DNA of 43,702 nucleotides from a virus, in the IMG/VR virus record IMGVR_UViG_3300043548_000109, positions 1-43,702 of that record. The stretch is one strand, 5' to 3'. Every line of letters starts with the position of its first letter. The stretch's first letter is position 1. A program made the position numbers and the translations under genes. Below are positions 5,324 through 27,081 of the stretch, in pieces. The notes below the pieces were generated by a model. It saw nothing but the letters and a program-made list of their open reading frames with translations, did not search any database and had not been told where the DNA came from.

Positions 5324-5398
5324 GCACCCAGGCGGGATTCGAACCCGCATCGTCCTGCAGCGCAGTGACCGCCCTGTCCGATTGGTTCGCACTGGGTG
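5324..5398 (-). tRNA. tRNA-like gene, isotype unassigned (degenerate)
   Basis: On the minus strand a perfect 7-bp acceptor stem (CACCCAG / CTGGGTG) encloses 75 nt. It contains a perfect 5-bp T-arm with a canonical loop, GCGGG-TTCGAAT-CCCGC. CCA is not encoded, as is usual in cyanobacteria. The D-arm is only 3 bp. I cannot draw a normal 5-bp anticodon stem with a 7-nt loop and U33: a CAC anticodon (Val) gives four pairs but an over-long variable loop. It may be a non-standard tRNA, a tRNA-like decoy, a degenerated tRNA or an att remnant. It lies at the distal end of the minus-strand operon. Confidence 0.55.
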
Positions 5399-5435
5399 AG
5401 CCCGATGCCATAGGCAGAGCGGGAACACGATCACG

Positions 5436-5522
5436 CTACGGCAGGATCCTGCTGCACACCCACAGCGCGATCAGGCACGTCGCCCAATACTCCAGCACCA
5501 GCACCAGCACGTCGCGCAGCAT
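5436..5522 (-). CDS. 28-residue membrane peptide
   Basis: A 28-codon frame whose ATG overlaps the upstream gene's stop (TGATG at 5520-5524), following the overlap pattern of the whole operon. Nearly all of it is hydrophobic ('MLRDVLVLVLEYWATCLIAL'), a single membrane helix with an Arg near each end. It is too short to assign to a family. The coupling makes it more credible than its length alone would. Confidence 0.45.
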   Translation of the reverse strand: MLRDVLVLVLEYWATCLIALWVCSRILP

Positions 5523-5695
5523 CAGCGTGCCAGCAGGTGGTCGAGATACAGCTCGGCCTGCCACAGATCGCTTGAGTAGCGGCAGATCCCACCGACGCAG
5601 CTGCGGTAATACAGCTCACCGCCACCATCGGGCTCGAGCGTTTCGATCCATCCGCCGTCACGATCCGTGTGGCTGACCACCTTCGGCTGGCTCAT
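5522..5695 (-). CDS. Small hypothetical protein
   Basis: 57 residues from the ATG at 5695 ('MSQPKVVSHTDRDGGWIETL'), with a beta-rich middle and an aromatic end ('LWQAELYLDHLLAR'). Two Cys in 'SCVGGIC' could bind a metal or pair. The family is not recognised. It overlaps the upstream gene by 38 nt and the downstream peptide by 3 nt in an operon of similar small genes. Confidence 0.6.
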   Translation of the reverse strand: MSQPKVVSHTDRDGGWIETLEPDGGGELYYRSCVGGICRYSSDLWQAELYLDHLLAR

Positions 5696-23502: not shown

Positions 23503-25040
23503 TGGGCGTCCGCAGCGCAATTCTGGGCTGGCTGCAGCGCGGAACACCGGAACTGGTGAAGGCACCGCGGCGGCGGATGTACGAGGGCGCGAAGTTCTCG
23601 CGGCTGACGGCTGACTGGGTGACGGGCAACACCAGCGCCGACAGCGAGGTGTACGGCTCGGCGCAGAAGCTGCGCGATCGAGCACGGCAGCTGTGCCGCG
23701 ACAACGACTACGCCAGGCAGGCGCTGCGTGCCATCGAGGGCAACGTGGTGGGGCAAGGCATCCCGTTTCAGGCGCAGGTGCGGATGCTGCGCGGCGGCCG
23801 GCTGGATGGTGGCATCAACGATCAGATCGAGCAGGCATGGCGCCAGTGGATCAAGGCGCGGCACTGCCATACCGGCGGCAAGTTGACGTTCCACGACATC
23901 GAGCGGCTGGTGGTGCGCGCGTGCGCCGAGTCCGGCGAGGTGTTCGTGCGGCTGGTGAAGCAGCCGTTCGGCGGCAGCAGCGTGCCGCTGGCGATCGAGG
24001 TGCTCGAGGCTGATCTGCTGGATGACGGGCTCAACGGCCGCAGCCAGCAGGGCAATGAAATCAGGATGGGCGTCGAGGTGGACACATGGGGCCGCCCGGT
24101 GGCGTACCACTTCCTCGCCTATCACCCCGGCGATTATCAGTTCAGCAACCAGCAGATCTCGACGCAGCGGCACAAGCGCGTGCCGGCCGAGGAGGTGATC
24201 CACCTCTACCGGATGGAGCGGCCGGGGCAGACACGCGGCGTGACGTGGTTCGCCAGCGCGATCCAGCGGCTGCATCACCTGCAGGGCTACGAGCAGGCCG
24301 AGGTGGTGCGCGCGCGCGCGAGCTCGGCGCTGATGGGCTTCATCACCAGCCCTGAGGGCGAGCTGCAGGGCGATGAGGTGATCAACGGCGAGCGGGTGTC
24401 GAATTTCGAGCCCGGCGTCTTCAAGTACCTGGCGCCCGGCGAGTCGGTGAGCGTGCCGCAGCTGGATGCCCCGGATGGGCAGTTCGAGCCGTTCCTGCGC
24501 GCAATGCTGCGGGCAATGGCGGCCGGTGTCGGCTGCAGCTACGAGACGATCAGCCGCGACTTCAGCCAGACGAACTACAGCAGCTCGAGGCTGAGCCTGC
24601 TGGAGGATCGCGACCACTGGCGCATCCTGCAGAACTGGCTGATCGAGAACCTGCACCAGCGGGTGTTCGATGCCTGGCTCGACATGGCCGTGCTGAGCGG
24701 TGCGCTGCCGCTGCCGAACTACGAGCTGCAGGCCGATCGCTACAAGGCGGTGCGGTGGATGCCGCGCGGCTGGGCATGGGTGGACCCCGCCAAGGAGGTT
24801 GAGGCCTACGCGCTGGCGGTGCGCAACGGCTTCAAGACGCTGAGCGAGGTGGTCGCGGAGCAGGGCGGCGACCTCGAGGAGCTGATGCGCGCACGCCGGC
24901 AGGAGCTGGATGATGCCGAGCAGCTGGACCTGAAGTTCGACACCGACCCGAGCGCCGATGTGGTGCCGGCCGGTAACGCAGCAGTGGCTGACGATAATGG
25001 GACAGACAACCCGGACAACACCGATGGATCTATCGCGTGA
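23502..25040 (+). CDS. Portal protein, lambda gpB-like
   Basis: 512 residues, typical of the lambda-type portal family. Family features are 'RARQLCRDNDYARQALRAI', 'GNVVGQGIPFQAQVRM', 'VIHLYRMERPGQTRGVTWF', 'ARASSALMGFIT' and 'SYETISRDFSQTNYSSSRL'. The portal forms the dodecameric ring at one capsid vertex through which DNA is packaged and ejected. Its start touches the previous stop by one base, and the protease-capsid gene starts inside its last codons. Confidence 0.93.
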   Translation: MGVRSAILGWLQRGTPELVKAPRRRMYEGAKFSRLTADWVTGNTSADSEVYGSAQKLRDRARQLCRDNDYARQALRAIEGNVVGQGIPFQAQVRMLRGGRLDGGINDQIEQAWRQWIKARHCHTGGKLTFHDIERLVVRACAESGEVFVRLVKQPFGGSSVPLAIEVLEADLLDDGLNGRSQQGNEIRMGVEVDTWGRPVAYHFLAYHPGDYQFSNQQISTQRHKRVPAEEVIHLYRMERPGQTRGVTWFASAIQRLHHLQGYEQAEVVRARASSALMGFITSPEGELQGDEVINGERVSNFEPGVFKYLAPGESVSVPQLDAPDGQFEPFLRAMLRAMAAGVGCSYETISRDFSQTNYSSSRLSLLEDRDHWRILQNWLIENLHQRVFDAWLDMAVLSGALPLPNYELQADRYKAVRWMPRGWAWVDPAKEVEAYALAVRNGFKTLSEVVAEQGGDLEELMRARRQELDDAEQLDLKFDTDPSADVVPAGNAAVADDNGTDNPDNTDGSIA

Positions 25041-26820
25041 CCTTGAAGGGCAACTGTTGAAACGCTCTGAGGTTGCTGACTTCACGGTCAGCGAAGACGA
25101 GCGGTCGATTGAGTTCCCCTTTTCGAGCGAGTTTCCTGTCGCTCGCTACTTCGGCAATGAAGTGCTGAGCCACGATGAGCGCAGCGCTGATCTTTCGCGG
25201 CTGAATGATTCTGCACCGCTGCTGTTCAACCACGATCCCGACAAGGTGATCGGTGTTGTTGAGCGCGCGTGGATCGATGGCAAGAAGAAACGCGGCTATG
25301 CCAAGGTGAAGTTCAGCCGTAACGCCTTCGCGCAGGAAGTGCTCGCGGATGTGCGTGACGGCGTGCTGCGCAACGTAAGCTTCGGCTACGCGATCAACGA
25401 CATGGAGCAACGCGGCAGCGGTGATTTCGTCGCTACCAGCTGGGCTCCCTACGAAGTGAGCGTGGTTAGCATACCTGCAGACCCCACTGTGGGTGTGGGT
25501 CGGTCTCTCGAGGCCGATCCTGCGGCCTCCGCCGCATCACCAACCCCCCAACCAGAACCTGAGGTTCCGATGGAAAACACCCCCGACATCTCGGCGGTGC
25601 GGGCTGAAGCGGCTCAAGAGGCTGCCAAGGCTGAGCGCGCCCGTATCTCCGGCATCACTGCTCTGACCGAAAAGCACGGCATGGCTGATCTCGGCCGCCA
25701 GCTGATCGAGGGTGGCCGCAGCCTCGACGAGGCTCGCGCTGCTGTGCTCGAGAAGATCGGCGCCAAGGTTGAGCCCGTGGCTGAGAAGGCCTCCGACGTT
25801 GGCATGACCGAGAAGGAGGTGCGCAGCTTCTCCTTCCAGCGCGCGATCAACGCACTGGCCAACCCCCAGGACCGCAAGCTGTGGGAAGCCGCCGCTTTCG
25901 AGCGTGAGTGCTCCGAGGCTGCTGCCGCCAAGGCCGGCAAGACCGCGCAGGGCATCATGGTGCCCAACGAGGTGCTGCGCCGCGACCTGACCGTGGCATC
26001 GGCCGCTTCGGCTGGTGATCTGGTCGGCACCGACTTCCGCCCCGGCTCCTTCATCGAGCTGCTGCGCAACCGCTCCGCCCTTGCTGGTCTCGGCGTCACC
26101 TCGCTGACCGGCCTCAGCGGCAACGTGGCGATCCCTCGCCAGACCGGCGCTGCAACCGCCTACTGGGTGGCTGAGTCCGGTTCTCCCACCGAGAGCAACC
26201 AGACCGTCGATCAGGTGAACCTGAGCCCCAAGACCGTGGGCGCCTTCACCGACTACAGCCGCCGTCTGATGCTGCAGTCCAGCATCGATGTGGAGCAGAT
26301 GATCCGCCAGGATCTCGCCACCGTGCTGGCACTGGAGATCGACCGCGTGGGTCTCTACGGCCTGGGCAACACCAACCAGCCTCTGGGCATCAAGCTCACC
26401 ACCGGCATCAACACCAAGGACTTCGCCGCCAACACCCCGACTTACGCCGAGGTGGTGGACATGGAGAGCCAGATCGCTGCCGACAACGCCGACATCGGCG
26501 CCATGGCTTACCTGATGAACGCCTCCATGCGCGGCGCTCTGAAGACCAAGGACAAGGGCACCGACACCGGCGCTTACGTGTTCGAGCCCGGCGGCACCGT
26601 GAACGGCTACAACGCCGTGGTGTCCAACCAGGTGGCCTCCGGCGACATCTTCTTCGCCGTGTGGAACCAGCTGATCATGGCAATGTGGTCTGGTCTGGAT
26701 CTCACCGTGGATCCCTACACCCACAGCACCAGCGGCACCGTGCGCGTGGTGGCTCTGCAGGATGTGGACTTTGCAGTCCGTCACCCTGAAGCCTTCTGCC
26801 GCGGCGCAGACACCCTCTGA
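25024..26820 (+). CDS. Prohead protease fused to HK97-fold major capsid protein
   Basis: 598 residues from the ATG at 25024; an ATG at 24997 is also possible. Residues 1-165 are an HK97-type (U35) prohead protease: 'DSAPLLFNHDPDKVIGVVE' (His) and 'LRNVSFGYAI' (Ser), then 'YEVSVVSIPADPTVGVGR'. A Pro/Glu linker leads to a helical scaffold-like delta region (about 185-300). The major capsid fold follows ('NVAIPRQTGAATAYWVAES', 'DLATVLALEIDRVGLYGLG'). One precursor supplies protease, scaffold and shell. An in-frame ATG at 25570 with GAGG upstream could also make capsid without protease. Confidence 0.9.
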   Translation: MDLSRDLEGQLLKRSEVADFTVSEDERSIEFPFSSEFPVARYFGNEVLSHDERSADLSRLNDSAPLLFNHDPDKVIGVVERAWIDGKKKRGYAKVKFSRNAFAQEVLADVRDGVLRNVSFGYAINDMEQRGSGDFVATSWAPYEVSVVSIPADPTVGVGRSLEADPAASAASPTPQPEPEVPMENTPDISAVRAEAAQEAAKAERARISGITALTEKHGMADLGRQLIEGGRSLDEARAAVLEKIGAKVEPVAEKASDVGMTEKEVRSFSFQRAINALANPQDRKLWEAAAFERECSEAAAAKAGKTAQGIMVPNEVLRRDLTVASAASAGDLVGTDFRPGSFIELLRNRSALAGLGVTSLTGLSGNVAIPRQTGAATAYWVAESGSPTESNQTVDQVNLSPKTVGAFTDYSRRLMLQSSIDVEQMIRQDLATVLALEIDRVGLYGLGNTNQPLGIKLTTGINTKDFAANTPTYAEVVDMESQIAADNADIGAMAYLMNASMRGALKTKDKGTDTGAYVFEPGGTVNGYNAVVSNQVASGDIFFAVWNQLIMAMWSGLDLTVDPYTHSTSGTVRVVALQDVDFAVRHPEAFCRGADTL

Positions 26821-26823
26821 TCG

Positions 26824-26865
26824 AAAGGAGGCGGGGCGGCCTAACGGTCGCCCCTACCAACCATG
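26824..26865 (+). promoter_or_regulatory. Hairpin-bridged ribosome binding site of the 72-aa gene
   Basis: A perfect Shine-Dalgarno AAAGGAGG (26824-26831) is followed by a 9-bp hairpin, GGGGCGGCC-TAAC-GGTCGCCCC (26833-26854; one G-U pair), and then the ATG at 26863. The linear spacing is 31 nt, too long for initiation. If the hairpin folds, the spacing becomes 9 nt, which is ideal. The fold would therefore bring the two signals together, as proposed for T4 gene 38. Confidence 0.7.
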
Positions 26866-27081
26866 AAGATCAGAATTGTCCGTAACACTGTTGCAGGTGG
26901 GCAGGCCGTAAAGGCCGGCCAAGTGGTTGAGGCGTCCGACGCTGATGCGCGCTACTTGTTGGCAGTTGGCAAAGCTGAAGCAGTGGCCGAGGCACCTGCT
27001 CCTGAGCCCGAGGTTGAGGCTCCCAAACGCAAACCCCGCACAAAGGTGACCACCGATGGCGATCTACCAGCAGACGCTTGA
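26863..27081 (+). CDS. Small head protein of unknown function
   Basis: 72 residues: a small beta-type start ('MKIRIVRNTVAGGQAVKAG', 'VVEASDADARYLLAVGKAE'), then a Pro/Glu and Lys tail ('APEPEVEAPKRKPRTKVTT'). The position after the capsid gene is where head-completion or decoration genes lie (FI position in lambda). The next gene starts within its last codons. Its ribosome binding site is unusual (see 26824-26865). The function is not established. Confidence 0.7.
   Translation: MKIRIVRNTVAGGQAVKAGQVVEASDADARYLLAVGKAEAVAEAPAPEPEVEAPKRKPRTKVTTDGDLPADA

Follow-up and report, generated by a model that had tools for sequence, protein, structure and literature searches.

The start codon of the gene that follows the major capsid gene in this phage is probably served by a hairpin-accommodated (split) ribosome-binding site (RBS) of the T4 gene 25/38 type, which would have evolved around a post-capsid hairpin. 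This reading draws on the geometry of the site and its conservation among relatives, on covariation of the stem, and on the wide occurrence of similar hairpins after capsid genes. Since the geometry is that of the split RBSs of T4 genes 25 and 38, the site would be a new case of an already known class. The window, i.e., the whole stretch of DNA that was analyzed, is a 43.7-kb virus record with a GC content of 59-66%, and its nearest named relatives over the junction stretch are the Synechococcus siphophages S-LBS1, S-CBS3, and S-CBS1.

Direct reading of the sequence confirmed that the Shine-Dalgarno (SD) sequence lies 31 nt from the ATG when the RNA is unfolded, as reported in the initial annotation. 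Positions 26833-26854 form, by sequence and by fold (about -19 kcal/mol), the 9-bp stem and 4-nt loop that had been proposed, with one G-U among the nine pairs, and folding of this hairpin indeed cuts the gap to 1 + 8 = 9 nt (Table 1). The strength of the SD/anti-SD duplex was reached by only 0.25% of random 15-mers of the window, and no other copy of the element was found in the virus record beyond this single match.

Table 1. Features of the junction between the capsid gene and the next gene, in coordinates of the window.
Feature	Position	Strand	Basis or remark
Fused prohead protease/major capsid protein gene	24958..26820	+	Longest ORF; true start may be internal
Capsid gene stop codon TGA	26818-26820	+	
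Strong SD AAAGGAGG	26824..26831	+	Sequence; duplex with ACCUCCUUU -11.9 kcal/mol
Single C between SD and stem	26832	+	Sequence
Hairpin 5' arm GGGGCGGCC	26833..26841	+	Fold, covariation
Hairpin loop UAAC	26842..26845	+	Sequence
Hairpin 3' arm GGUCGCCCC	26846..26854	+	Fold, covariation
8-nt stem-ATG spacer UACCAACC	26855..26862	+	No SD, no U-tract
72-aa downstream gene	26863..27081	+	ATG is the bridged start codon

The genes around the junction are arranged in the order portal, fused protease/major capsid, 72-aa protein, 129-aa protein (phrog_5707), head-tail attachment protein, and tail terminator. The capsid gene matched Phage_capsid (4.5e-45) and Peptidase_S78 (3.4e-10) in Pfam, and phrog_617, a major head protein family (3e-185), in PHROG. 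The label of "head gene" given earlier to the 72-aa product was a guess from its position, and its PHROG matches were to families of unknown function (phrog_2616, 3e-09), together with a weak head-tail connector match. The ATG at 26863 is taken as the correct start codon because homologous proteins align from its Met. A start codon close to the GGAGG, which would have weakened the proposal, was looked for and is absent: no ATG, GTG, TTG, or CTG was found between the GGAGG and position 26862, and the in-frame stretch 5' of the ATG contains no other usable start before a stop codon.

The same junction was compared in 92 distinct cases, many of them from close relatives, so that the counts are not independent events; most were collected by capsid-protein homology searches and a few (e.g., L133 and L198) by motif scans. 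The hairpin was present in 31 of them, with a distance from stem to ATG of 8 nt (n = 25), 7 nt (n = 4), or 9 nt (n = 2), and the length of this spacer was held at 7-9 nt across the hairpin-bearing relatives while its sequence varied. An SD (duplex of -3 kcal/mol or stronger) was found just 5' of the stem in 27 of these 31 junctions; 19 of the 27 reached -9 kcal/mol or stronger, a level met by 1.2% of background 15-mers. A favorable SD duplex between stem and ATG was found in none of the 31. In L022 and L011, the stretch 5' of the stem is shorter, yet a GGAG core persists at 1-2 nt from it. A recognizable SD is missing from four junctions (L032, L070, L074, and L373), although hairpin and spacing are preserved there. 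The loop is not conserved in the family, in which UAAC, UAGC, UGAG, UUCG, GUAA, and GUAACA were all observed. Among distant members, L231 combines an SD, a hairpin, a T6 run, and an ATG 9 nt beyond the stem, the ATG of L232 lies 33 nt past the stem, and L236 and L386 carry a purine-rich SD 3' of the hairpin.

The hairpin was absent in the other 61 junctions, where the next gene begins at the stop codon of the capsid gene (TGATG, n = 21) or 2 nt after it (n = 40). The hairpin is likewise missing from S-LBS1, S-CBS1, and S-CBS3. Relatives lacking the stem, which had been named beforehand as a finding that would speak against the site, thus do exist, but they use this stop/start-adjacent arrangement instead and have no distant SD.

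Compensatory changes in the stem, expected from the initial annotation if the structure is functional, were found in relatives and were two-sided in five of the nine pairs, for example in L013 (GGGCCGG/CCGGCCC) and L023 (GGGGCUGG/CCAGCCCC). Standard pairs were formed by 98% of the stem cells in 28 distinct junctions, versus 21-62% when the partner was slid, and the covariation score was reached by none of 500 shuffles. In the alignment used, MAFFT placed L074 and the loop of L032 wrongly, an error that biases against the covariation count and not for it. It is therefore very improbable that the hairpin is a coincidental structure in a GC-rich genome: the composition of the window and the presence elsewhere of some equally stable simple hairpins would agree with such an origin, which is refuted by compensatory changes across relatives that were found by protein similarity.

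Folding models were used to estimate access of the ribosome to the site. The isolated hairpin has a free energy of -18.8 kcal/mol; only one other simple hairpin on the + strand of the window is more stable. The 101-nt region around the junction folds with a z-score of -2.73. The modeled cost of opening the SD, spacer, and start was 13.7 kcal/mol with the hairpin kept versus 35.4 kcal/mol with the hairpin melted, suggesting that the 30S subunit would accommodate the hairpin. For hairpins upstream of an SD, accommodation by the 30S subunit has been measured, with only 1-3 bp predicted to open (PMC3936740). With a ribosome placed on the capsid stop codon, the modeled mean opening cost fell from 11.3 to 6.2 kcal/mol, which would fit translational coupling. 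Against a split RBS, the SD of the window is partly paired to the spacer in the models (unpaired probability of 0.29), several kcal/mol are predicted to be needed to open the start region even if the hairpin stays folded, and the use of SD sequences by cyanobacteria is a matter of debate (PMC6847405).

An outer helix enclosing the SD, the hairpin, and the start was also considered. It pairs UCUGAUC (26816-26822), which holds the capsid stop codon, with GAUCAGA (26868-26874), which corresponds to codons 2-4 of the next gene, and has 7 bp in the window. We do not claim this helix, because the mean of the relatives was hardly above that of shuffles (6.0 versus 5.2 bp) and because the opening cost was no higher than in codon-shuffled controls (11.3 versus 10.6 kcal/mol).

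That the hairpin is an ordinary intrinsic terminator separating the capsid gene from the tail-proximal genes appears improbable, even though the stem is followed by T4-T6 runs in L010, L011, L016, L070, L092, L373, L231, and L236. In the window, only one of the eight bases after the stem is a T and a terminator scan did not return this hairpin, so that a terminator was rejected there, and most SD-bearing relatives are also devoid of a U-tract. Of the junctions without a recognizable SD, L070, L373, and L032 carry 3-5 T at or beyond the end of the stem, a pattern that would fit an evolutionary alternation between terminator-like and split-RBS states.

Similar hairpins were surveyed with a motif-based sample, in which the exact motif GGGGCGGYYTAACGGYYGCCCC was found in 42 viral contigs and a relaxed form with free stem bases in 113. 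Ninety of 91 analyzed hairpins were fully paired, though two stem pairs were unconstrained in the pattern, and 85 of the 91 follow a gene stop. The genes that precede the hairpin in clusters with no relation to the window encode major head proteins (PHROG 371, 283, 10, 1328, 9953, 1357, and 4523) or virion structural proteins, with a minority encoding RNR, MazG-like, or major tail proteins. Among named phages, the hairpin lies directly 3' of the major capsid gene in Octadecabacter DB virus 2, one gene after the major head protein in Rhizobium phage RHph_N2, after CoaB in the filamentous Pseudomonas phage 36-2, and after the gene for an ssDNA-binding protein in Pseudoalteromonas phage PY6. A control pattern with a UUCG loop behaved in the same way as UAAC, and homologous capsid genes are followed by either UAAC or UUCG hairpins (L124/L445 and L139/L420), indicating that GC-rich tetraloop hairpins after capsid genes are common and that no particular loop sequence is essential to the pattern. 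Among these unrelated phages, 14-80 nt mostly separate the stem from the next ATG, which usually has an SD of its own; the family of the window is unusual in that its RBS straddles the hairpin.

GC-rich 9-bp UAAC hairpins were seen in unrelated phages at L102, L104, L106, L119, L124, L156, L170, L183, L186, and other loci, and these, like the UUCG control set, lie a few nucleotides after the stop of major capsid or virion structural genes. Post-capsid UAAC/UUCG hairpins are possibly a general post-capsid RNA element. It is also conceivable, though less likely than not, that tailed phages in general use such GC-rich hairpins, with UAAC- or UUCG-type loops and immediately 3' of the major capsid gene, as a regulatory element that many unrelated capsid families have evolved or exchanged.

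Searches against Rfam gave no known family at gathering score, and this identity was rejected: the best match was ncS025 (13.4 bits versus a threshold of 46, E 9.3), and no match was obtained for the hairpins from 14 loci, both related and unrelated. A role of UAAC as a specific protein-binding loop, such as the loop carried by the T4 gp43 operator (PMC3014915), was dismissed as unnecessary, since the loop varies freely within the family and UUCG replaces UAAC after homologous capsid genes. The exact 22-nt hairpin was also present in 14 bacterial genome contigs (L142-L155), mostly away from capsid genes; some of these copies are accompanied by T-runs and resemble ordinary terminators. In one Bacteroidetes assembly (UBA955), two contigs carry the hairpin with near-identical flanks (L143:35-56 and L144:125-146), possibly as a repeated element. 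Separately, the virion structural gene upstream of the hairpin in L104 is itself preceded, at a distance of about 1.3 kb, by a group I intron (5324-5583; Rfam RF00028, 76 bits).

The frequency of such hairpins raises the question of whether the one in the window is only a post-capsid RNA element, a 3'-end protector or weak terminator that raises capsid over downstream mRNA, with the next gene translated by reinitiation or without an SD and with a dispensable GGAGG. The recurrence of this kind of hairpin, with UAAC or UUCG loops, after major head genes of many PHROG families agrees with it, as do the four junctions that keep the hairpin without an SD, the starts at or beside the capsid stop in hairpin-free relatives, the strong terminator that directly follows the major capsid gene in T7 and LUZ100 (PMC10134795), and the stabilization of upstream operon genes by 3' hairpins (malE-malF type; PMC5927463). 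However, it leaves unexplained why the stem-ATG distance is fixed at 7-9 nt, why most junctions have a strong SD 1-2 nt 5' of the stem, and why no SD follows the stem, in contrast to the hairpins behind unrelated capsid genes. We thus consider this explanation possible but rather unlikely.

The proposal that translation of the downstream gene depends on RNA structure, made in the initial annotation, stands in part: the restored spacing, the covariation, and the constancy of the 7-9 nt argue for it, while the four of 31 junctions without an SD count against it. The further suggestion made there, that the structure perhaps lowers the amount of this protein relative to the capsid protein, is not supported by these comparisons. 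The four SD-less junctions suggest that the hairpin probably has a second role, and, together with the unrelated post-capsid hairpins that lie outside RBSs, they make SD bridging unlikely to be its only or original role. We infer that this family built its RBS into a post-capsid hairpin, either a terminator or an element of the mRNA 3' end. Under the split RBS that we favor, the 30S subunit would pair with AAAGGAGG just 5' of the hairpin, which would be kept folded and not melted, and the fold would place the ATG, 8 nt past the stem, at 9 nt from the SD, a normal spacing. Ribosomes that complete the capsid gene, a few nucleotides upstream, probably feed the site and open the surrounding structure. 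The hairpin itself probably descends from a post-capsid hairpin and may still act as a leaky terminator or as a protector of the mRNA 3' end.

On a capsid tree of 76 rows, the hairpin and no-hairpin labels need six changes, three of which are required by branches with good support, and the deepest split has hairpins on either side. The capsid of L009 is 98% identical to that of the window, but at its junction the hairpin is missing, stop and start overlap as TGATG, and the downstream N-terminus differs. The difference between this junction (after position 5263 of L009) and that of the window (26820) suggests that the junction is also a place of exchange, and it resembles a recombination point.

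To our knowledge, few split ribosome-binding sites are known. The present family would add a second case, from phages unrelated to T4, in which covariation and a spacing of about 8 nt extend over many relatives, and would thereby supply a natural data set on accommodation by the 30S subunit of a hairpin between SD and AUG. It also offers an evolutionary contrast, as the stop/start-adjacent arrangement is found in close relatives whose capsid gene is almost identical. Such starts will be missed or assigned wrongly by gene callers whose search for an SD extends to about 15 nt. Moreover, the GC-rich tetraloop hairpins found after many unrelated major capsid genes raise the testable question of how phages set capsid stoichiometry.

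Several known systems share features with this junction. Like the terminator of T7 and LUZ100, the element is a GC-rich hairpin directly after the capsid gene; unlike it, the hairpin of the window has no U-tract, the next ATG lies 8 nt beyond the stem, and an SD precedes the stem. As in operons of the malE-malF type, a stable hairpin follows a highly expressed gene, a likeness that rests on position and structure, but here the hairpin is inside the RBS of the next gene. The split RBSs treated in a review of T4 are those of T4 and its close kin, including the proven cases of gene 25, where the spacing is cut from 27 to 11 nt (Nivinskas 1999; Malys and Nivinskas 2009; reviewed in PMC3014915), and gene 38, where a hairpin cuts the SD-AUG spacing from 22 to 5 nt (PMC3014915). 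As for gene 25, the SD is too far from the AUG, a hairpin lies between them, folding restores the spacing (31 to 9 nt here), and the site is intercistronic, kept in near relatives, and absent in farther ones. The phage and host are, however, unrelated to those of T4, the present case is known from sequence and folding models, and its stem is GC-rich with UAAC-, UUCG-, or GUAA-type loops and resembles post-capsid hairpins. Gene 38 likewise has a hairpin that shortens the SD-AUG spacing, but differs in gene, phage, and stem. Several features expected of a split RBS were found in the window and its family, in which 27 of the 31 hairpin junctions also keep the SD: an SD at an unworkable distance when unfolded, with no alternative SD or start, a stable intervening hairpin, a folded spacing within about 5-11 nt, a structure conserved by compensatory change, and a spacing conserved in relatives.
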